Made by a program: the position numbers and the translations under genes. Positions 4,906-21,658 of a DNA stretch of 22,519 bases are shown here, piece after piece. The notes below the pieces were generated by a model that worked only from the letters and a program-made list of their open reading frames with translations, did not search any database and was not told the origin of the DNA. How positions within the stretch are numbered: position 1 is the stretch's first letter; each line of letters starts with the position of its first letter. This DNA comes from a virus: positions 1-22,519 of the IMG/VR virus record IMGVR_UViG_3300010885_068918, one strand, 5' to 3'.

Positions 4906-5889
4906 TTAGTTACCAAATCCCATTTTTCCACCTCCTTTGACGGAGGGGGTTTTCTTAAGACCTTCCAAATTATTAATGGTTTCATTGAAATCTCTCCCCA
5001 TAATAATTACAGAAATAACTACTTCTTTTAAATGTGAAAGAGACATTCCTTCTGTTTTCTTTACCCATTCTTCTATATCTATTTTTTCGAGATCCTCTTT
5101 AGTTAGCTTATTTTGTATAAAACATCTTCTGATATCTTTATTAGGAAGTTCTACTTTATATCTTCTATCAAATCGGGAAGGTCTATTTGTTATTCTTTCC
5201 TGTAATTTTTCAGGATAATTTGTAGTTGCGATATAGACAACATTTTCTATTTGCTTTACCCCATCTAGTATATTTAATAGCTTACCTACTGAATAGCTGT
5301 GTTCTCCCGCTATAGAATCAATATCCTCTAATATAACAATTAAAGGTCTATCCGGCTCAATCTCTCTAAAAGAAGAAATAAAAGAAGAAAATCTCTCAAG
5401 ATCATCTTCGTCTTTGACGTTGATTACTATCCCCCCTTTTTCTATGATGTTTTTAGAGACCATTTGGATAATTCCAGATTTACCACATCCGGGTTCACCA
5501 AACATTAGAATACCTCTTTTATGTATAAACTTATATTTTTCATACTGATCTTTCATATTCCAAAAATTATCAATATCTTTAAGTATATCGATAATTTCAT
5601 CTGAAGGAAGAGGATAAAGCTCGTCGGTTTTAAATGGCTGTTTTTTTAAAGTCTCCATGGATAATTTAGGGTTATATGTTATTTCATAAACCCCTGGAGG
5701 TACACCTTCTATTGTATGGTAAGAAGGAATATATTCATCATTTTCTAAAACAGCCCAGCAAGAGAATTTTTTACCTTTTTTACCTTTTTTATCTTCCGGC
5801 TCTTCTCTTAACATAGATCCTACTCTTTCTGAATAGCTATTGATTAAAGATTCAACCTCTTTAATTCCGTAATCTTTTTTCTTTGCCAT
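4906..5889 (-). CDS. AAA+ ATPase
   Basis: This 327-residue protein has a polar N-terminal region of about 115 residues and one AAA+ module: Walker A GEPGCGKS (131-138), Walker B IVILEDID (184-191), sensor 1 in ATTNYPEKL (221-229) and arginine residues in RPSRFDRR (236-243). The short interval and the R-x3-FDR pattern are those of the classic AAA clade (FtsH/BCS1/proteasomal-ATPase-like), whose members unfold or remodel proteins as hexamers. There is no protease domain or membrane segment. The Lys-rich segment KKGKKGKK at 34-41 may bind nucleic acid or membrane. It lies upstream of the phage-type genes and follows the SPFH membrane cluster, so a membrane-linked role is possible but inferred. 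Confidence 0.92.
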   Translation of the reverse strand: MAKKKDYGIKEVESLINSYSERVGSMLREEPEDKKGKKGKKFSCWAVLENDEYIPSYHTIEGVPPGVYEITYNPKLSMETLKKQPFKTDELYPLPSDEIIDILKDIDNFWNMKDQYEKYKFIHKRGILMFGEPGCGKSGIIQMVSKNIIEKGGIVINVKDEDDLERFSSFISSFREIEPDRPLIVILEDIDSIAGEHSYSVGKLLNILDGVKQIENVVYIATTNYPEKLQERITNRPSRFDRRYKVELPNKDIRRCFIQNKLTKEDLEKIDIEEWVKKTEGMSLSHLKEVVISVIIMGRDFNETINNLEGLKKTPSVKGGGKMGFGN

Positions 5890-5930
5890 CTTATTTTATT
5901 GTTGTAGTTTTTAATTTTTATTAAGTTTCC

Positions 5931-6134
5931 TTAATCTATTAGATCATTTTTATCTTTTTCTTTCTTCTCCATATATTCTATTAGAAGATATACTCCTACG
6001 ATTACCATAAAAAGACTAAGCGAAACAGTGATAATAAAAGATATAGTAGGTAATGTTTCAAAAAATATAAAAATAAAACTAATAACCGCCAATGTTATGA
6101 CGGTTATTAGTGATTTTATTAAAAGATCTTTCAC
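5931..6134 (-). CDS. Small two-helix membrane protein
   Basis: This 67-residue protein has two hydrophobic segments (about residues 7-26 and 30-53) followed by a highly charged tail (EKKEKDKNDLID). The start is a GTG at 6134, supported by the one-base spacing from the stop of the upstream SPFH gene and by the natural membrane-protein N-terminus MKDLLIKSLI. Placement directly after the SPFH gene and before the AAA+ ATPase suggests that it belongs to the same membrane assembly, for example as an accessory subunit. A holin-like role is conceivable for any small two-helix phage protein, but nothing here supports it specifically. Confidence 0.7.
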   Translation of the reverse strand: MKDLLIKSLITVITLAVISFIFIFFETLPTISFIITVSLSLFMVIVGVYLLIEYMEKKEKDKNDLID

Positions 6135-6135
6135 C

Positions 6136-7083
6136 TTAATTTTTAATATTCAAGAATGTTCCAGATCCACCTGCAACAGTAGTTGGTAGTTTACCATCCC
6201 ATGCCTGAGCTTTCAAGTATTCAATATACAATGGTGTAATTTCTTTTTGCTTCAATTTCATTGCTAATGCAAGAGCCTGTGCATCGATAATCACTTTAGC
6301 ACTATCTCCTTTTGCAATAGCTATTTTTTCTAATGCCTCTGCCTGTGCCACCAATGTTCTTTGTTGTGCTGCTTGAGCTTCCTGTACTGCCTTTGTTTTA
6401 CCTTCGATGGCCTTTTGTAATGAAGCTGGTGGTACTATATTAGTTCGTAGCTGGGATACAGTAAACCATTTAGAAACTCTTTTATTACATTCTACGATAA
6501 TTGCAGCTTCAAATTCTTCTCTTTTATTAAATATTGCATCTACTTCCCATCGGTTAGCAACATCATTTACGGATGAAACGATAGCGTTTTTCAACCATCC
6601 CTGTTCAACTTCTCTAATATCTAGACGAAGATTAACAAACATTTCCCCGATTGCATCTTCACGTAATGAGTAATTAAATGATGGTTTAATTGTTGCTGCA
6701 AAACCTCCTTTAGTAATTACTTGCTGTGCATCATATTCAATGTGTTGCTGGAATAAAGGAAATTCCTTAACCTGTTCAGTCCATGAATTGTAAAATACCC
6801 AACCAGTTTTATATTGGTATGAACTAACTCCTCTATCGGCACCTGTTAAATTAACTTTTAGTCCTTTATTACCTGCATCAATTCTTTCTAAAGAAAATGG
6901 CTGGATAAAGGATAGGATTAAACCGATGATGATAGAAGCAATACCAGTAATTACTTTTTTACCTGCTGCATTCTTAGCTGCAGAATCATTGTAGGATGCG
7001 TTGGATCTCATAGATGATCCACGTAGAATTAAAATTACTCCGAAAATCAGAGCTGATACGAAAATTAAAATTGAAATAATCAT
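6136..7083 (-). CDS. SPFH/band-7 (prohibitin-like) membrane protein
   Basis: This 315-residue protein begins with a membrane segment (about residues 1-20), has a second at about 44-62, and then a band-7/SPFH domain: FSLERIDAGNKGLKVNLTG, a YKTGWVFYNSWTEQV strand region and a long middle domain. A coiled-coil helix rich in Ala, Gln and Glu follows (QEAQAAQQRTLVAQAEALEK and on, about 233-285), and then a short C-terminal tail. This is the order in prohibitins, HflK/HflC and QmcA, which form ring or cage assemblies on the membrane and often regulate FtsH-type AAA proteases. It overlaps the upstream membrane-protein gene by four bases and lies near an AAA+ ATPase gene. A membrane-shaping or host-protease-modulating role is inference. 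Confidence 0.9.
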   Translation of the reverse strand: MIISILIFVSALIFGVILILRGSSMRSNASYNDSAAKNAAGKKVITGIASIIIGLILSFIQPFSLERIDAGNKGLKVNLTGADRGVSSYQYKTGWVFYNSWTEQVKEFPLFQQHIEYDAQQVITKGGFAATIKPSFNYSLREDAIGEMFVNLRLDIREVEQGWLKNAIVSSVNDVANRWEVDAIFNKREEFEAAIIVECNKRVSKWFTVSQLRTNIVPPASLQKAIEGKTKAVQEAQAAQQRTLVAQAEALEKIAIAKGDSAKVIIDAQALALAMKLKQKEITPLYIEYLKAQAWDGKLPTTVAGGSGTFLNIKN

Positions 7084-7271
7084 TTTTCTTCTTTTTTATT
7101 ATTAATTACACTTACCGTCTCGTCTACTAAATAAATTACGAGTCCAACCAGTCCGACGAGACATAAAAGCTGGATATACCCGTTTACGGGTCTACTTATG
7201 GCGTATTCGCCACACAGGGATGCGATTACAATAAATCCTAGCCACATCAGGAACACCTTAAAATACTTCAT
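7080..7271 (-). CDS. Small two-helix membrane protein
   Basis: This 63-residue protein has two hydrophobic stretches (about residues 4-22 and 32-52), a short loop containing SRPVNGY, and a charged C-terminus (NNKKEEK). Its stop overlaps the start of the SPFH gene by four bases (ATGA), so it is coupled to SPFH synthesis. No family is recognised. It pairs with the similar-sized two-helix protein on the other side of SPFH, although the two sequences are not obviously related. Confidence 0.72.
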   Translation of the reverse strand: MKYFKVFLMWLGFIVIASLCGEYAISRPVNGYIQLLCLVGLVGLVIYLVDETVSVINNKKEEK

Positions 7272-7326
7272 TAATTATTTTTTAATTATTTAAAACAAAT
7301 ATGGGATTTAATCCGTGGGGAAAAAA

Positions 7327-7992
7327 TTATTTGCTAATTGCTATTATGTAGCTCGGGTATTTTTTATCTATGATTTCCCCTCCTTCATATTTGGCTCTTG
7401 GGAAAACTATTCCCCTATCAGATTTAATCTTATACATTCCTTCCTCCGTGAGCTCTATTATAATCCCAGGTTCTGGCTGGCCTAAAAATGTTACAACAAC
7501 CCTAGTTCCTACTTTTAACGTGTGTTTTTTATTTACAGGGGGAGCATTTTTATCAACTTTGGGATTTCTTTTAGGTTGTTTTATATAAGCTGGTTTCTTT
7601 TCTATAACCTCAGTTTCTTCCACTACTTCTTCTATTTCGATTTCTTTAGCTTTCGGAACCGTAATTTTTTTAACCGGTGGTTTTTGTGGTTTAGGTAAAA
7701 CTTTTTTATCCTCTTTTAATGTAGGTTTCTTTGCGGGTATCTCTTTCTTTATCTGATTTTTAATTACCCGTATTTTATTCTCTGTTTCTTTTTTCGGAGG
7801 GGTAACCCCACGGGGTAAGGGATTTTTTTCCTTGACGATCTGTTTAACCGGATCTACTTTTTTATTAACCTTAGCTTTTACTATGGTAACTTCTTTTTTA
7901 GGCGGGGAAACTTTAGCTACAGGAAGCTTTTTAGCCTCCGTTACATTTTTAACCGGTTCTTCAAATAGTGGTTCAATTTTTTTCCTTGCCAT
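7327..7992 (-). CDS. Lys/Pro-rich protein with a C-terminal SH3/KOW-like domain
   Basis: The first 150 or so of 221 residues are low-complexity Lys/Pro/Val/Glu sequence with irregular repeats such as KKEVTIVKAKVNKKVDP and KPPVKKITVPK, very likely disordered and strongly basic. The last 65 residues look folded: HTLKVGTRVVVTFLGQPEPG, then GMYKIKSDRGIVFPRAKYEGG, a pattern like small SH3/KOW-type beta barrels. The basic tail may bind DNA, RNA or an acidic partner, or act as a flexible linker; this is inference. TATAAATA lies on the coding strand at 8008-8001, just before the start, but overlaps the end of the upstream gene. Confidence 0.78.
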   Translation of the reverse strand: MARKKIEPLFEEPVKNVTEAKKLPVAKVSPPKKEVTIVKAKVNKKVDPVKQIVKEKNPLPRGVTPPKKETENKIRVIKNQIKKEIPAKKPTLKEDKKVLPKPQKPPVKKITVPKAKEIEIEEVVEETEVIEKKPAYIKQPKRNPKVDKNAPPVNKKHTLKVGTRVVVTFLGQPEPGIIIELTEEGMYKIKSDRGIVFPRAKYEGGEIIDKKYPSYIIAISK

Positions 7993-7999
7993 TTTTTAA

Positions 8000-8227
8000 T
8001 TATTTATAAAATTCTACTTCTTCTAATGGATAAGAGTTTCCTTTATCTGAAATTATAATAATCTCGGCAGGAGCAGGAACCCAATTTTTTTTCACCAATT
8101 TCATCGTTTCATAAATAACAACCCTATAACAAATTATACTTTCGGTAGAAGAACCATATTTAGAATTGTATCTAAATTTTTTCCCTTCGTACATTTCCCT
8201 TATACTTTCGTAATATTGATCTTTCAT
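8000..8227 (-). CDS. Hypothetical protein, 75 residues
   Basis: No family is recognised. The sequence reads like a small beta-rich domain: KFRYNSKYGS, IICYRVVIYETMKLV and AEIIIISDKGNSYPLEEVEFY. The ending resembles that of surface- or metal-binding phage accessory proteins, but the match is too weak to name. The start overlaps the stop of the upstream phosphoesterase gene by four bases (ATGA). Confidence 0.68.
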   Translation of the reverse strand: MKDQYYESIREMYEGKKFRYNSKYGSSTESIICYRVVIYETMKLVKKNWVPAPAEIIIISDKGNSYPLEEVEFYK

Positions 8228-8745
8228 CTTTCTATACCTAATTCATCTAAAGTTTTTGGCTTATAATCTACATGTTCACATGAAACGCAAATGTAACGTT
8301 CGTCTGGTATTGAATCTATTTTATATCCCCATTCGTAGACATCTTTCGTAACTAATTTCTCGTGAATGTGTCCGTGAATATTCTTATTTACCCGATATTC
8401 TAATTCCGATTCATGAACCGGACAATGGGTAAGCCAAACCCCTTTATATTTTATCATCCCGCATACTCTATCCACATACTTTAGAAGCTCAGGAACATCC
8501 TGAGGTCTATCGTGATTACCAAGTATAACTATCTTTCTACCATTTAGAGAATCTAATCTATAATAATTTTTGGAATTCTCCATCGTAATATCTCCTAGTA
8601 TATAGGTTAAATCTCTTTTACCCACTACCGAATTCCATTGATCCACTATATACTCATCATGAGAAAATTCATCTTGGAATTTTCTCATTTTGGCCATGTT
8701 GGTATGGCCCAAATGCAAATCTGCTATGAATCTTACTGTACACAT
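8224..8745 (-). CDS. Calcineurin-like metallophosphoesterase (phage/YfcE-like)
   Basis: This 173-residue protein carries all motifs of the fold: D9-x-H11, G51-D52, G76-N77-H78-D79, H107 in LTHCPVHE, and G125-H126-I127-H128. The C-terminal CEHVDYKPKTLDEL is typical of the short phosphoesterases common in phages and bacteria. It would hydrolyse a phosphomonoester or phosphodiester with two metals; the substrate is unknown. It is unlike the MPPED-like enzyme at 1818-2486 and the LpxH-like one at 18336-19028, so the three are not recent duplicates. TAATG and ATGA junctions link it to both neighbours. Confidence 0.9.
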   Translation of the reverse strand: MCTVRFIADLHLGHTNMAKMRKFQDEFSHDEYIVDQWNSVVGKRDLTYILGDITMENSKNYYRLDSLNGRKIVILGNHDRPQDVPELLKYVDRVCGMIKYKGVWLTHCPVHESELEYRVNKNIHGHIHEKLVTKDVYEWGYKIDSIPDERYICVSCEHVDYKPKTLDELGIER

Positions 8746-11537: not shown

Positions 11538-14204
11538 TTAGTTGATATTGGGGGAAAGAGATTTTTTGCCTTCTTCTAATGTAATATTTTTTCGATTTGA
11601 ATAATCTATAACCTGATCCTCTAATATTTTGCCAAGACCAAAATATTTAGAATCCGGATGCCCAAAATACCATCCGCTAACGGAGGATGCCGGAAACATT
11701 GCTAGGTTTTCTGTTAATGAAATTCCTATTAACTCATTGACCTTAAGTATATTAAAAAGATCTATTTTTTCTAGATGGCTTGGACATGCAGGATATCCAG
11801 GAGCAGGACGAATTCCCCTGTATTTTTCTTTAATTAAATCCTCATTAGAAAGAATTTCATATTCCGAATATCCCCAATGCTTAGATCTTACCTCTCTGTG
11901 TAGGTATTCAGCAAGTCCTTCCGCAAGTCTATCTGCTATAGCTTTAAGCATTATAGAATTATAATCATCTTGATCATCTTCAAACTCTTTTATTTTTTCT
12001 TCGATATTAAATCCAGAGGAAACTGCAAAAGCACCAATATAATCAACTATACCCGATTCTTTAGGGGATATAAAATCAGAAAGAGATATATTAGGTTGTC
12101 CTTCTACCTTTTTAGTTTGTTGTCTTAGACAATGCTGGATTCCGATAATCTTATTAAAATCTTTTGGATCGTAAATTTCAATATCTTCACCTACCGAATT
12201 GCATGGGAATAACCCAAATATTGCTCTAGCTTCTATCCATTTCTCTTCTATTATCAGGGATAACATTTTTTGGGCGTCCTCAAATAATCTTTCTGCCGCT
12301 TCCCCTACTATTTCATCTGAGAGAATTCTTGGGTATTTTCCATGAAGATCCCAGGTTTGAAAGAATGGTGTCCAATCAATAAATTTACTAATTTCTCTTA
12401 TGTCTATGTCTTTCATAACTTTAACCCCTAAAAAATGAGGACGAAATATAGATTTCTGATTAAAGTCTAATTTTAATTTGTTTTTTCTAGCCTCTTCTAT
12501 AGACAATAATTCTTTATTTTCCCTGTGTTTTTTGTGGTGAGTTCTAATTCTTTCATACTCTAATTTTATCTCTTTTACGAAATTATCTTTTTTCTTTCCT
12601 AATAAACTCTCAACAACAGTTACTGATCTAGAAGCATCTAATACATGAACTACTTGGCCCTTAGTGTAGATTTCCTCTATCTTTACCGCAGTGTGGACCT
12701 TAGATGTTGTTGCTCCTCCTATTAGTAAAGGAATATCAAGACCCCTTCTTTCCATTTCTTTAGCTATATAGACCATTTCGTCTAGAGAAGGAGTTATCAA
12801 TCCACTAAGACCTATAGCATCCACATTTTCTTTAATTGCAGCTTCTATAATTTTTTCGGCAGGAACCATTACCCCTAGATCTATTACCTCGTAGTTATTA
12901 CACCCAAGAACAACACCAACGATATTTTTTCCAATATCATGGACATCACCTTTTACAGTAGCCATTAAGATTTTCCCGGAATAAGAAGATATACCTCCTT
13001 TTTCCTCTTCTATAAAAGGAAGAAGATACCCAACTGCTTTTTTCATAACCCGTGCAGATTTTACAACCTGGGGTAAAAACATCTTTCCGCTACCAAATAA
13101 ATCACCAACTACATTCATACCGTCCATCAAAGGTCCTTCTATTACTTGTATTGGTCTATCATATAACTTTCTACATTCTTCTACATCTTCTTCGATGTAA
13201 TCAACTATTCCTTTAACTAATGAATGTGAAAGCCGGTCTTGTACTGTATTATTTCTCCATGATAAATCTAATTCTTTTCTGTGAACCCCTCCTTTTACGG
13301 TTTCAGAAAGAATCAATAGTCTTTCTGTTGCATCTTCTCTCTTATTGAAAAGTACATCCTCCACGTGGTTTAGCAATACAGGATCGATTTCTGAATATAC
13401 ACCTAACATACTAGGATTGACTATACCCATACCCATACCATTTTGGATAGCATGGTAAAGAAAAGCTGAATGCATAGCTTCTCTAACTTTATCATTTCCA
13501 CGAAAGGAAAAAGAAACATTAGAAACACCTCCGCTAACATGTGCACCTGGAAGATTATCTTTGATCCATTTAGTTGCTCTGAAGAAATCTATTGCATTAT
13601 TATTATGCTCTTCCATTCCGGTTGCAACAGGAAAGATATTGGGATCAAAAATAATATCCTCTTTTGCAAAATAAACAACATCAACTAAAATATCATATGA
13701 TCTTTTACAAATTTCTATTCTTCTTTCGTAGCTATCTGCTTGACCGTCCTCATCAAAAGCCATTACTATAACAGCAGCACCGAATCTTTTAATTATTTTG
13801 GCTTGCTTTATAAAATTTTCTTCTCCTTCTTTAAGAGAGATTGAATTGACTACCCCTTTACCTTGTATACATTTTAGACCTGCTTCTATAATTTCCCATT
13901 TTGAGCTGTCAATCATAATAGGAACTCTAGAGATATCAGGTTCGGATGCTATTAGATTTAGAAATTTAATCATGGATTCTTTACCATCGATCATTCCTTC
14001 ATCCATATTAATATCAATAATCTGAGCTCCTCCCTCTACTTGTTCTTTTGCAACCGATAATGCAGCTTCAAAATCCCCTTCTTTTATAAGACGCAGAAAA
14101 GCTTTAGAGCCCGTAACATTGGTTCTTTCCCCTATGTTTATAAAATTAGATTCTTTTGTGGCAATAAGAGGTTCTAAACCTGATAGTTTTAAAGTTTCTT
14201 CCAT
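11538..14204 (-). CDS. metH: Cobalamin-dependent methionine synthase, folate/B12/activation subunit
   Basis: This 888-residue protein matches MetH without the N-terminal homocysteine domain. The pterin-binding domain is at about 18-290 ([30 protein letters not shown]). The cobalamin cap follows at about 320-400, then the B12-binding Rossmann domain (DVHDIG 420-425 with axial ligand H422, SGLITPS, GGATTS). The SAM-dependent activation domain is at about 580-888 ([19 protein letters not shown] at 799-808, [20 protein letters not shown]). All key motifs are intact, so it should transfer the methyl group from methyl-THF through cobalamin to homocysteine with its partner gene upstream, which it overlaps by 16 bases. 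The split is usual in Bacteroidota hosts. In phage surroundings it would be an auxiliary metabolic gene. No cobalamin riboswitch is apparent. Confidence 0.95.
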
Positions 14205-18335: not shown

Positions 18336-19028
18336 TTAATTTAATTGTTTCAATTCAAATTCATCATTATCATAGATTATGTAACTGTTATTTTCAATCC
18401 AGTCTCCACAATTTAAATAATGTATTCCTTTTATGATCTTATCTGCTGGGGTGTGTATATGTCCAGCGATTACACCTTTGCATCCTCTTTCTTTAGCTTG
18501 ATAAACTAATTGGTTTTCGAAATCTGTAATAAATTTAATTGCATTTTTAACTTTATTTTTTAAGTATTTGCTTAAAGATTTCTTGTGTCCTAGTTTCTTT
18601 AGAAAATGGTCTATGCCTATAGCCATTTCGTACCCCACTGACCCTAAAACCCCTAGCCATTTCATAGATACTATTCCGTCATATAAATCCCCGTGTGTTA
18701 TGTAGTACCCATTCCATACATATTCATCTAGTATTTTTATGTTTATCCCTAAATTCATAGGTGAATAATTCCTTAAAAAATCATCATGATTCCCAGTAAT
18801 ATAAATCACTTGGGTTCCTTTCTTAGAATAAGAAAGTATTTTACGAATTAAATTTGTAAAATCCTGGGTCCAATAGTGTCTTTTCTTCAGTAACCACCCA
18901 TCAATAAAATCCCCTACTATAAAAAGATATTTGGGTTCATATTGTTTTAACGTTTCCAATAATTCTGAAGCTTTGCTTCCTTTACTTCCTAAATGTACAT
19001 CCGAGATGAACAATGCTTCTATTTTCAT
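18336..19028 (-). CDS. LpxH-like metallophosphoesterase (UDP-2,3-diacylglucosamine diphosphatase-like)
   Basis: The ATG at 19028 (ATGA overlap with the glycosyltransferase gene) is preferred over an in-frame TTG at 19034, giving 230 residues. Motifs are D10-x-H12, G39-D40 (VGDFIDGW), G79-N80-H81-D82, T111-H112-G113-D114 and G189-H190-I191-H192. The SDVHLGSKGS start and the GDFIDGW segment are typical of the LpxH/LpxH-like branch, which removes UMP from UDP-2,3-diacylglucosamine in lipid A synthesis at the inner membrane. The basic helical insert (KKLGHKKSLSKYLKNKVKNA, 144-163) could contact membrane lipid. Whether this copy acts on lipid A precursor or another diphosphate is unknown. Confidence 0.85.
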   Translation of the reverse strand: MKIEALFISDVHLGSKGSKASELLETLKQYEPKYLFIVGDFIDGWLLKKRHYWTQDFTNLIRKILSYSKKGTQVIYITGNHDDFLRNYSPMNLGINIKILDEYVWNGYYITHGDLYDGIVSMKWLGVLGSVGYEMAIGIDHFLKKLGHKKSLSKYLKNKVKNAIKFITDFENQLVYQAKERGCKGVIAGHIHTPADKIIKGIHYLNCGDWIENNSYIIYDNDEFELKQLN

Positions 19029-19735
19029 TTCCAATAATTTTTATCTTCTGTAAACCATGCTTTATTTCTGTGATTGAAAAAAGATCCTATCATTAATTTT
19101 AGCATATAGGTTACCCCTTTATTTTCAAATCTACGTGGAGGGGTAAAAACCACATTATTAATTCTACCGAATTTATTTGGTCTAATTTTTTTGGATAGTT
19201 GATAATCCTCTGCTATTTTAATTTCCTCGTCAAATCCATTTAATTCTCTGAATGTGTCGCTTTTAATTAACATGTAACCTCCCAGACAGAAAGGGGTTGA
19301 CCATTTTGATAGTATTTGTATGAAATCAAAAAATTTATACACATAATTATACTTTCCATTATCACTTCTAAATTTAACTGTCGTCAGATCTAGATTTCTT
19401 TTTTTAGCTAATAATAATGATCTTTTTATTGTCTTAGGATCTAACAAAAACACATCAGAATCTAGGAATAACACGTAAGGTGTTTTAACAAGTTTAAATC
19501 CATTATTTCTCGCTCTTGCAGGAAGTCCTCCTTCCATCAAATACAAATCAAATAAATCCGAATTGTCTTCTAGTCTTTTAAGTAAATCTTGTTTTGTTAT
19601 ACCGTCATTTGATGCATCGCATACAATTACTTTTACCCTCCGAATACCTGATTGATAGTTTAAGAGATCGAGTGTTTTTAGTATAACGCTCTTCTCGTTT
19701 TTACAAGGTATTACGATTGTTAATAGATCTTTCAT
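19025..19735 (-). CDS. Family 2-like glycosyltransferase (GT-A fold)
   Basis: This 236-residue protein has the GT-A family 2 layout: an N-terminal nucleotide-binding strand (LTIVIPCKNE, 5-14), VIVCDASNDGIT (37-47), GLPARARNNG (70-79), the metal-binding DSD at 92-94 (LFLDSDVF), CLGGYMLIKSD (150-160) and the catalytic-region acidic pair E176-D177 in IAEDYQLSK. It would transfer a sugar from a nucleotide-sugar; donor and acceptor are not deducible. No transmembrane segment is clear, but the C-terminal MLKLMIGSFF may contact membrane. It overlaps the LpxH-like gene by four bases, suggesting a joint role, perhaps in altering the host envelope or in DNA or virion glycosylation. Confidence 0.9.
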   Translation of the reverse strand: MKDLLTIVIPCKNEKSVILKTLDLLNYQSGIRRVKVIVCDASNDGITKQDLLKRLEDNSDLFDLYLMEGGLPARARNNGFKLVKTPYVLFLDSDVFLLDPKTIKRSLLLAKKRNLDLTTVKFRSDNGKYNYVYKFFDFIQILSKWSTPFCLGGYMLIKSDTFRELNGFDEEIKIAEDYQLSKKIRPNKFGRINNVVFTPPRRFENKGVTYMLKLMIGSFFNHRNKAWFTEDKNYWK

Positions 19736-19772: not shown

Positions 19773-20513
19773 TTAATTAACATAATTATAATCTTCGTAT
19801 TTCTTATTTTTTGAATTTATCCTCCATAAAATAGTTGGACATGGAATTCCTATTTGTCTAGATGCTTCTGCTAAACTTTCATATTTAATATCATCAATAA
19901 TTACTGATCTCATATTTGTTGGTTTTTTACCTTTTCTTTTATCGCTTAAGTTCTTTTTTGTTTCTTCCGAATGATTTTTCCCAAAGAATGAATTTTTTTC
20001 TCCAGATCTTTCGTATTCTAAGTGTTTAATGCATCTTTTAGCCCCTGTTGATATTCTAAGACTACAAATTTCACAAAATGAAATAGATTTTCCGTCTTTC
20101 CAGTTTGGATTTTTTTCCATTGGATAGGAATGCAATTTATCTATTTCTTCTTTGGACATTCTATCGTATCTTTCCCTTATACTTTTTGTCATTCTTTTTA
20201 TGATTTCCTCTCGATTGGGATTTTTTGATAAATTATCGCCACCATTGGATTTCATACCTATATTATATTTTGGGTTCATATCTAGATAATATTGTTCTCT
20301 TTCCAATAAAATATCTAAACTGCATTCTTCAATCACTTCAAAGATGAAATTATGGCTCCCGTATTTAATCCAAGCTCTTTGGAGATGGAAATTACCGTGT
20401 TTTCCTAGGTTTAATTGGTTTCTGTGGGTTTTCCATCTTTTTTGTATATTTTTAGAAGATCCATAATATAGATCCCCATTAATTAAGTTTTGAATTTTGT
20501 ATATCCCAATCAT
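19773..20513 (-). CDS. Freestanding GIY-YIG homing endonuclease with NUMOD modules
   Basis: This 246-residue protein has an N-terminal GIY-YIG nuclease domain: G3-I4-Y5, the YYG variant at 16-18, catalytic R26 and a Glu in LEREQYYLD (about 73). It then has a DNA-binding part: NPNWKDG (135-141) and GEKNSFFGKNHSEETKK (171-187) as NUMOD3-like repeats, and IIDDIKYESLAEASRQIGIP (205-224) as a NUMOD1/helix-turn-helix module. A putative zinc site lies between (C147-x2-C150-x10-C161-x2-H164). It makes a site-specific DNA cut that spreads its own gene. It lies directly downstream of the thymidylate synthase gene, where T4-like phages often carry GIY-YIG enzymes, but it is not in an intron: thymidylate synthase is uninterrupted. 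Confidence 0.93.
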   Translation of the reverse strand: MIGIYKIQNLINGDLYYGSSKNIQKRWKTHRNQLNLGKHGNFHLQRAWIKYGSHNFIFEVIEECSLDILLEREQYYLDMNPKYNIGMKSNGGDNLSKNPNREEIIKRMTKSIRERYDRMSKEEIDKLHSYPMEKNPNWKDGKSISFCEICSLRISTGAKRCIKHLEYERSGEKNSFFGKNHSEETKKNLSDKRKGKKPTNMRSVIIDDIKYESLAEASRQIGIPCPTILWRINSKNKKYEDYNYVN

Positions 20514-20572
20514 ATTATTTTTTATTTTATATATCTTCTAAATAAAAAATATTAAATGGTAGTCCTAGAAAA

Positions 20573-21658
20573 TCAATTGGATAGCGGCATTTTTATTGCT
20601 GGATGAGATTGATAGTTTTCAATAATAAAATCAGTGCTATCTAAATGTGTCAATAAACTCAAATCTTCAGATAGGGATTTATAAAAATCATCTGTCTTCA
20701 AATGTTTCAATGTTGCTAGAGGATATGGTTCTCTTGTCAATTGCTCCTTAATTCCGTCTATTTGATTAAGATATATGTGACAATCCCCCATATTCGCAAT
20801 TAATTCATCGGGAACCATATTAACCATTTTTCCTATAATTTCTAATAGTAGTGCGTATGAACTGATATTAAATGGCGTTCCAAGTGGAACATCTTGACTT
20901 CTGGCATTATACATTAGAGAAATTGCCCTACTAGGTACAGGATATAATTCATTAATCTCTTTATGAGTTACTTCAAAAAAATCTGTAGGTTCAAATAGAT
21001 TTTTATATGTTTTTGATGCTAAATCTAATCGTTCCTCTATACTCAACTCTCTCGTATAAACTTGAAATCCATAATGACAAGGTGGAAGAGTCATTTGGTC
21101 TAGTTCAGCAGGATTCCACGCAGTGACCATTAATCTTCTTGAATCTGGATTTGTTTTAAGGTCGCTGATTAGGCTTGCAATCTGGTCAAGTTTAGGTACT
21201 TCTTTGAAATGAGTTACTGAACCATGATTATATCCAGATGGAATCTTGTCATATCCTCCCCAAGCTCTCCACTGTGCCCCATAAATTGGACCTAATTCAC
21301 CCCACTTCTTAGCAAACTCATCATCTGTTTTGATTAACTCAACAAATCGTTCCATTGTGGTCTCTTCATCAGTATAATAGGTAAAACGCTTGTATGCGTC
21401 ACCGTCCCATATATGACAGTTGTTGTCAACAAGGAACTTGATGTTTGTATCCCCACGTAAAAACCACAACAATTCTGTTACAATTCCTTTGAAATACATC
21501 TTTTTTGATGTAATCAGTGGAAATCCCTCACTCATCTTGTGTCTGATTTGTCTTCCAAATAAAGATAGTGTTCCTGTACCTGTTCTGTCTTGTTTTGTAA
21601 CTCTATTATCTAGAATATCTTGGAGTAAGTCTGTGTATTGTTTATCTAGACTGTTCAT
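20573..21658 (-). CDS. thyA: Thymidylate synthase, phage type with insertion
   Basis: This 361-residue enzyme converts dUMP and methylene-THF to dTMP and DHF in the cytoplasm. Conserved features include RTGTGTLSLFG (25-35), the GELGPIYGAQWR segment (120-131), DSRRLMVTAWNP (172-183), catalytic C194 in LPPCHYGFQVY, ARSQDVPLGTPFN (252-264) and HPAIKMPLSN at the end. It is about 100 residues longer than E. coli ThyA (264), with much of the extra in an insertion at about 202-246 (TRELSIEERLDL...VPSRAISLMY). A gene one step upstream carries a similar insertion-like segment. The start overlaps a 49-residue frame by 17 bases. No intron or frame break is present. Confidence 0.95.
   Translation of the reverse strand: MNSLDKQYTDLLQDILDNRVTKQDRTGTGTLSLFGRQIRHKMSEGFPLITSKKMYFKGIVTELLWFLRGDTNIKFLVDNNCHIWDGDAYKRFTYYTDEETTMERFVELIKTDDEFAKKWGELGPIYGAQWRAWGGYDKIPSGYNHGSVTHFKEVPKLDQIASLISDLKTNPDSRRLMVTAWNPAELDQMTLPPCHYGFQVYTRELSIEERLDLASKTYKNLFEPTDFFEVTHKEINELYPVPSRAISLMYNARSQDVPLGTPFNISSYALLLEIIGKMVNMVPDELIANMGDCHIYLNQIDGIKEQLTREPYPLATLKHLKTDDFYKSLSEDLSLLTHLDSTDFIIENYQSHPAIKMPLSN

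Follow-up and report, generated by a model that had tools for sequence, protein, structure and literature searches.

A prohibitin-like SPFH protein and a small membrane hairpin protein as a candidate two-gene unit of phages

In most of the phage SPFH loci that we examined, the SPFH gene forms a conserved unit with a gene for a small two-helix membrane protein, here called TM1. We propose, with a probability of roughly 0.6, that this pair is a functional unit of two genes in which an exoplasmic prohibitin-like SPFH ring acts with a dedicated hairpin partner, and not part of a cluster of five genes. The AAA+ ATPase, the second two-helix ORF (TM2) and the Lys/Pro-rich protein encoded next to the pair are separate neighbours.

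Phage SPFH proteins as such are already known. Listings of them go back to 2006 and include T4-like phages (PMC1524935), and they have been speculatively linked to HflKC and lysogeny in the passages that deal with them in reports on prophage AH14b (PMC4936722) and on Bruynoghevirus relatives (PMC8540360). Phages are not mentioned in a survey of SPFH proteins from prokaryotes (PMC2636767). For the pairing with a membrane partner we found no description, as a search of open-licence papers returned none on a phage SPFH protein with such a partner. SPFH genes occur in hundreds of phage records, under names such as lipoprotein, transposase or serine protease. Recognition of the small partner, which is unannotated in several records, adds a further component to the phage SPFH protein, predicts on which side of the membrane it lies and makes an interaction directly testable.

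Gene arrangement in the window

The window, i.e. the whole stretch of DNA that was analyzed, is a linear fragment of a virus record with a length of 22,519 bases. Five ORFs, all on the minus strand, were recovered at the positions and with the spacing given by the first-pass annotation; coordinates and hydropathy bore out its description of the two small two-helix ORFs, and the SPFH and AAA domains were confirmed by Pfam. The ORFs encode the Lys/Pro-rich protein (7327-7992, 221 aa), the two-helix hairpin protein TM1 as first gene of the pair (7080-7271, 63 aa), the SPFH/Band_7 protein as its second gene (6136-7083, 315 aa), TM2 (5931-6134, 67 aa, GTG start), which is a doubtful gene lying over a terminator, and a soluble AAA+ ATPase of the classic AAA type, which is YjoB/Bcs1/CDC48-like (4906-5889, 327 aa). 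TM1 and the SPFH gene overlap by four bases (7080-7083) and a single base separates the SPFH gene from TM2. Hydropathy analysis detected two helices each in TM1, TM2 and the N-terminus of the SPFH protein, and no transmembrane helix in the AAA+ ATPase.

Elsewhere in the window, a thymidylate synthase ORF of 361 aa (within 19773-21658) aligns to only about 279 profile positions, which suggests an insertion, and is adjoined by a homing-endonuclease-like gene in the same region. An ORF of 888 aa (11538-14204) had no PHROG match at E <= 0.01. Two different metallophosphoesterase-like genes (8224-8745 and 18336-19034) are present within this 22.5-kb fragment.

Pairing of SPFH genes with a small two-helix protein

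In the clade of the window, TM1 was located between a 3-nt gap and an 8-nt overlap relative to the SPFH gene in 70 of 85 loci. Distant phage SPFH proteins, with approximately 25-32% identity to that of the window, are also directly preceded by a two-helix ORF of approximately 60-85 aa. This holds for the crAss-like phages cr85, cr128 and cr106, and for bajarodcaudo, Lak-B5, Pokken, ProddE, Mx1, Hali, OLIVR5, NV1 and ANB28; in cr128, cr106 and Pokken the upstream ORF is unannotated. The lineages with paired loci include crAss-like, N4-like, Lak and Pseudomonas phages, and partner and SPFH gene usually overlap by 4-20 bases.

An HMM of the upstream peptide was applied to the first set of SPFH loci together with loci from a second scan (185 in total, 76 non-redundant). 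Matches beside the SPFH gene were obtained in 174/185 loci and in 65/76 non-redundant loci, counts that include the sequences from which the HMM was built. Only five other matches were present in 20,579 frames, three of which likewise adjoined an SPFH gene, close to the end of a contig, and one of which overlapped the 3' end of an SPFH gene. With a plain ORF rule, which is independent of the HMM, an adjoining upstream two-helix small ORF was detected for 43 of 76 SPFH genes, compared with 9 of 363 control genes from the same loci (about 2.5%), demonstrating that the adjacency of TM1 is beyond chance.

The relationship among the partners was analyzed by cross-validation, in which the profile of the lipoprotein-type partners recovered the crAss-like partners (4/5 at E < 1e-3), and by profile comparison, which gave a 95.9% probability that these two types are homologous. 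The comparison of the window TM1 with the lipoprotein-type partner reached 25%, below the 54% of the unrelated TM2 control. Neither the HMM nor this comparison supported homology between the window TM1 and the lipoprotein-type partners; TM1 is the equivalent of the other partners by place and topology and not a proven homologue.

A tblastn search with the window TM1 gave no match in phage records. In the nearest relative with an annotation, Flavobacterium phage FL-1, the SPFH protein lacks such a partner, and the partner HMM matched nothing in those records of Staphylococcus, phiCbK, phiEa21-4 and archaeal phages that were examined. In Staphylococcus phage SA1 (L173, 1125-1385) the protein encoded upstream of the SPFH gene is not a hairpin but has one helix and a charged tail that is probably helical, and in L245 a partner-like peptide (2145-2324) overlaps the 3' end of the SPFH gene and is not located upstream. 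Chromosomal SPFH genes of Hymenobacter (L284-L297) have a two-helix ORF approximately 20-140 nt upstream, with a loop of the L[SN]xPS type. One such ORF with an LSRPS-type loop was considered as a bridge between the partner groups and rejected, as HMMs did not connect it significantly with the partners of phages.

Order of the five genes in relatives

In the first-pass annotation the SPFH protein, the AAA+ ATPase and the membrane proteins had been regarded as one cluster. Viral loci with relatives of the SPFH protein (80) or of the AAA+ ATPase (80) were fetched and each gene of the window was located in them. The AAA gene was present within 2 kb of the SPFH gene in 7 of the 62 SPFH contigs whose downstream sequence spans at least 1.3 kb, and the SPFH gene within 2 kb of the AAA gene in 7 of the 71 AAA contigs that extend at least 1.5 kb upstream; both sets consist of the same seven close relatives. 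All five genes were contiguous and in the order of the window exclusively in L001, which is 97-99% identical to the window in SPFH, TM1 and AAA. In L003, L069 and L015 approximately 2.7 kb separate the Lys/Pro gene from TM1, and in L003 this gap holds metK and two further genes. The close relative L081 harbors the Lys/Pro gene, metK, TM2 and AAA and lacks TM1 and SPFH, so that TM1-SPFH is gained or lost as one unit. Any Band_7 domain was detected in 3 of 20 AAA contigs of 69-296 kb, all of which are fragments, so that absence is not proof, and in two of these three contigs an SPFH gene of the window type is located tens of kilobases from the AAA gene.

Hence the order of the five genes breaks up in relatives and the genes occur independently, which is the result that the cluster proposal itself had named as speaking against it. 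With the poor conservation and with a terminator following the SPFH gene, the five-gene cluster was rejected. What remains of it is the SPFH gene with a small overlapping membrane protein in front, whereas AAA, TM2 and the Lys/Pro-rich protein drop out. The latter had no significant Pfam or PHROG match and is a fast-evolving protein that is a neighbour only. The metK-like ORF of 383 aa, which by eye resembles an S-adenosylmethionine synthetase (L003, 1862-3013; L081, 1992-3143), lies in the interval from the Lys/Pro gene to TM1 in L003 or to TM2 in L081 and is missing there in the window.

A terminator downstream of the SPFH gene

On the minus strand, 25 nt past the SPFH stop, a perfect hairpin of 14 pairs with a loop of 6 is followed by a T-rich tract (6111-6078), as is typical of a strong intrinsic terminator (-19.7 kcal/mol, z = -8.10). 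In the window it closes the TM1-SPFH unit before AAA. Essentially the same hairpin is present between SPFH and AAA in L001, L002, L003, L069, L007 and L015, and a different hairpin in L004. Around SPFH genes in general a hairpin scan was not discriminating (downstream 38/75, upstream 29/75); a search of Rfam returned nothing and a promoter scan gave fewer sites than in shuffled sequences.

TM2 lies over this hairpin, which L015 keeps without any TM2 ORF, and we therefore regard TM2 as an ORF drawn over the terminator. Between relatives its pN/pS is about 0.6 (0.57-0.68 where computable) compared with 0.08-0.33 for TM1. Two membrane peptides flanking SPFH had been described, and both ORFs exist, but the position of TM2 over the terminator and its almost free evolution cast doubt on its status as a gene. 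It may be non-functional, or it might be a weakly constrained gene, as its frame is kept in several relatives. As a partner of SPFH it was rejected, because it is missing in L004 and L015, is carried by L081, which lacks SPFH, and is weakly constrained.

The neighbouring AAA+ ATPase

The ATPase matched Pfam PF00004 (3.3e-16) above the curated cut-off. Its profile matches include CDC48, YjoB and Bcs1, YjoB (7w42) is the nearest solved chain to its model, and no protease domain was detected. It scored 48.9 bits against the curated NCBIfam cut-off of 600 for FtsH and 47.1 bits against that of 510 for IetAS/IteA; the match to PADLOC IetA (E 2.5e-15) probably reflects the shared AAA domain. The idea that the ATPase, too, is paired with a small membrane protein was rejected, since only 8 of 72 AAA loci have a two-helix ORF no more than 260 nt upstream. 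The ATPase is an independent neighbour, unlinked to SPFH in most contigs.

Family, fold and topology of the SPFH protein

The SPFH protein belongs to Pfam Band_7 (PF01145, 2.4e-19; 70.5 bits against a cut-off of 23.6) and matches phrog_200 (6.9e-49). It consists of two helices (residues 2-28 and 34-60), the SPFH domain (approximately 63-217) and a long helix (220-280). The structure model (pLDDT 82) has the SPFH fold (E63-E217) followed by the long helix or coiled coil (H220-280) that characterizes the superfamily. Human PHB1/2 (9o9z_A) was nearest to the model with a VIA-align Z of 18.1, followed by Erlin and HflC. Against the HflK family (TIGR01933) the protein reached 17.4 bits, compared with a curated cut-off of 159.4.

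In an alignment of 56 SPFH sequences a lipobox was found in 35 and two N-terminal helices in 20, including the clade of the window. As lipoproteins are exported, the SPFH domain of the lipobox relatives would therefore be outside. For the window clade, a loop between the helices that carries a slight positive charge on average and an N-terminus without charge weakly favour an outside position of the domain as well, although these charge differences are weak. In 36 of 42 partner hairpins both tails carry more positive charge than the loop, from which the loop is predicted to be outside. From sequence, TM1 is thus predicted to be N-in/C-in with a short outside loop, and the SPFH ring to be located outside the inner membrane.

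Possible functions of the pair

The SPFH protein may form a ring- or dome-shaped assembly on the outer, periplasmic side of the host's inner membrane, with TM1 as its dedicated small partner in the membrane beneath, in analogy to NfeD-type proteins of host SPFH proteins. Early in infection the pair could wall off a patch of membrane, and it could alter the activity of host FtsH-HflKC by imitating or displacing HflKC. Among the consequences considered, an altered activity of the FtsH-HflKC protease complex is ranked as most likely, with phage exclusion close behind; the FtsH effect is a tentative idea, plausible from the modelled fold and the predicted topology. Slightly less tentatively, we suggest that many lineages may carry an unrecognised two-component device, in which a prohibitin-like ring, located on the exoplasmic side of the host inner membrane, encloses a dedicated, co-translated hairpin and either reprograms membrane proteolysis of the host or walls off membrane sites during infection.

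Small membrane proteins and lipoproteins are known to act in superinfection exclusion and in blocking DNA entry. The pair could possibly do the same if its anchored periplasmic ring and hairpin closed the entry site in the inner membrane. The lipobox of most relatives is consistent with this, as is the genetic setting among replication and nucleotide genes and not lysis genes in the families listed. One partner peptide hit a superinfection-immunity PHROG weakly (E 0.12), a match at chance level, and among open-licence papers none linking phage SPFH to exclusion was found. Among the first 25 neighbour families per set, those of lipoprotein-type phages include replication and nucleotide genes, those of the window clade include genes for nicotinamide phosphoribosyltransferase and PRPP synthetase, and no lysis family is listed. 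NAD-salvage genes (nicotinamide phosphoribosyltransferase, NMN adenylyltransferase) and PRPP synthetase recur beside the pair in Myxococcus phage Mx1 (L174) and in loci of the window clade. The absence of lysis families among those listed makes a role of TM1 as holin or antiholin, with the pair controlling the timing of lysis, improbable, although TM1 is small, two-helix and N-in/C-in with a charged tail, and the SPFH gene of phage K adjoins a lysin. Its match to Phage_holin_2 (E 0.063) is weak and below the cut-off, and it scored 14 bits against a cut-off of 32 for the phage holin PF23778.

The SPFH gene could also have been captured from a host without a fixed partner, the upstream ORF then reflecting a gene neighbourhood rich in membrane proteins. 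Related SPFH genes are indeed present on chromosomes of host Bacteroidota, and homology of the partners across clades is not fully supported. However, the rarity of such a neighbour among the control genes of the same loci (9/363), the purifying selection on TM1 and the homology of lipoprotein-type and crAss-like partners (95.9% probability) render this unlikely. Least probable is that the five genes form one operon and one machine, in which the ATPase acts on clients gathered by the SPFH ring. Strand, close spacing and the vicinity of SPFH and AAA in the seven close relatives would fit such a machine, but it is at odds with the broken order in relatives, with TM2-AAA being kept without SPFH in L081, with the many large AAA contigs without Band_7, even though these are fragments, with the terminator between SPFH and AAA, and with the lack of a membrane anchor on the ATPase. 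Taken together, an SPFH ring with a dedicated hairpin partner is the reading that we prefer.

Comparison with known systems

The ATPase next to the pair has its nearest solved folds in Bacillus subtilis YjoB and mitochondrial Bcs1; unlike these, it has no transmembrane segment, and it does not belong to the pair. The fold of the SPFH protein resembles the subunits of PHB1/PHB2 and HflK/HflC rings (Z 18.1 to 9o9z_A and 14.8 to HflC, 7vhq_G). Unlike HflK/HflC, no second SPFH gene paired with the first was seen in the window. QmcA-YbbJ (8z5g; Z of QmcA to the window SPFH 13.5) and other SPFH-NfeD pairs likewise combine an SPFH protein with a small membrane protein. TM1 differs from NfeD in that it has no NfeD match in Pfam (E <= 1) and, with 63 aa, no room for a soluble domain besides its two helices. 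Among 13 upstream partner peptides, 8 matched phrog_1130, annotated as 'membrane protein', and 4 matched phrog_11742, while the window TM1 matched neither. Among the closest known proteins are the phage SPFH 'lipoproteins' of phrog_200, which belong to the same family as the window SPFH, and aligned relatives share length class and conserved columns. The passages that describe them present single genes and do not mention a small membrane partner. These lipoproteins carry a lipobox, where the clade of the window has two N-terminal helices instead.
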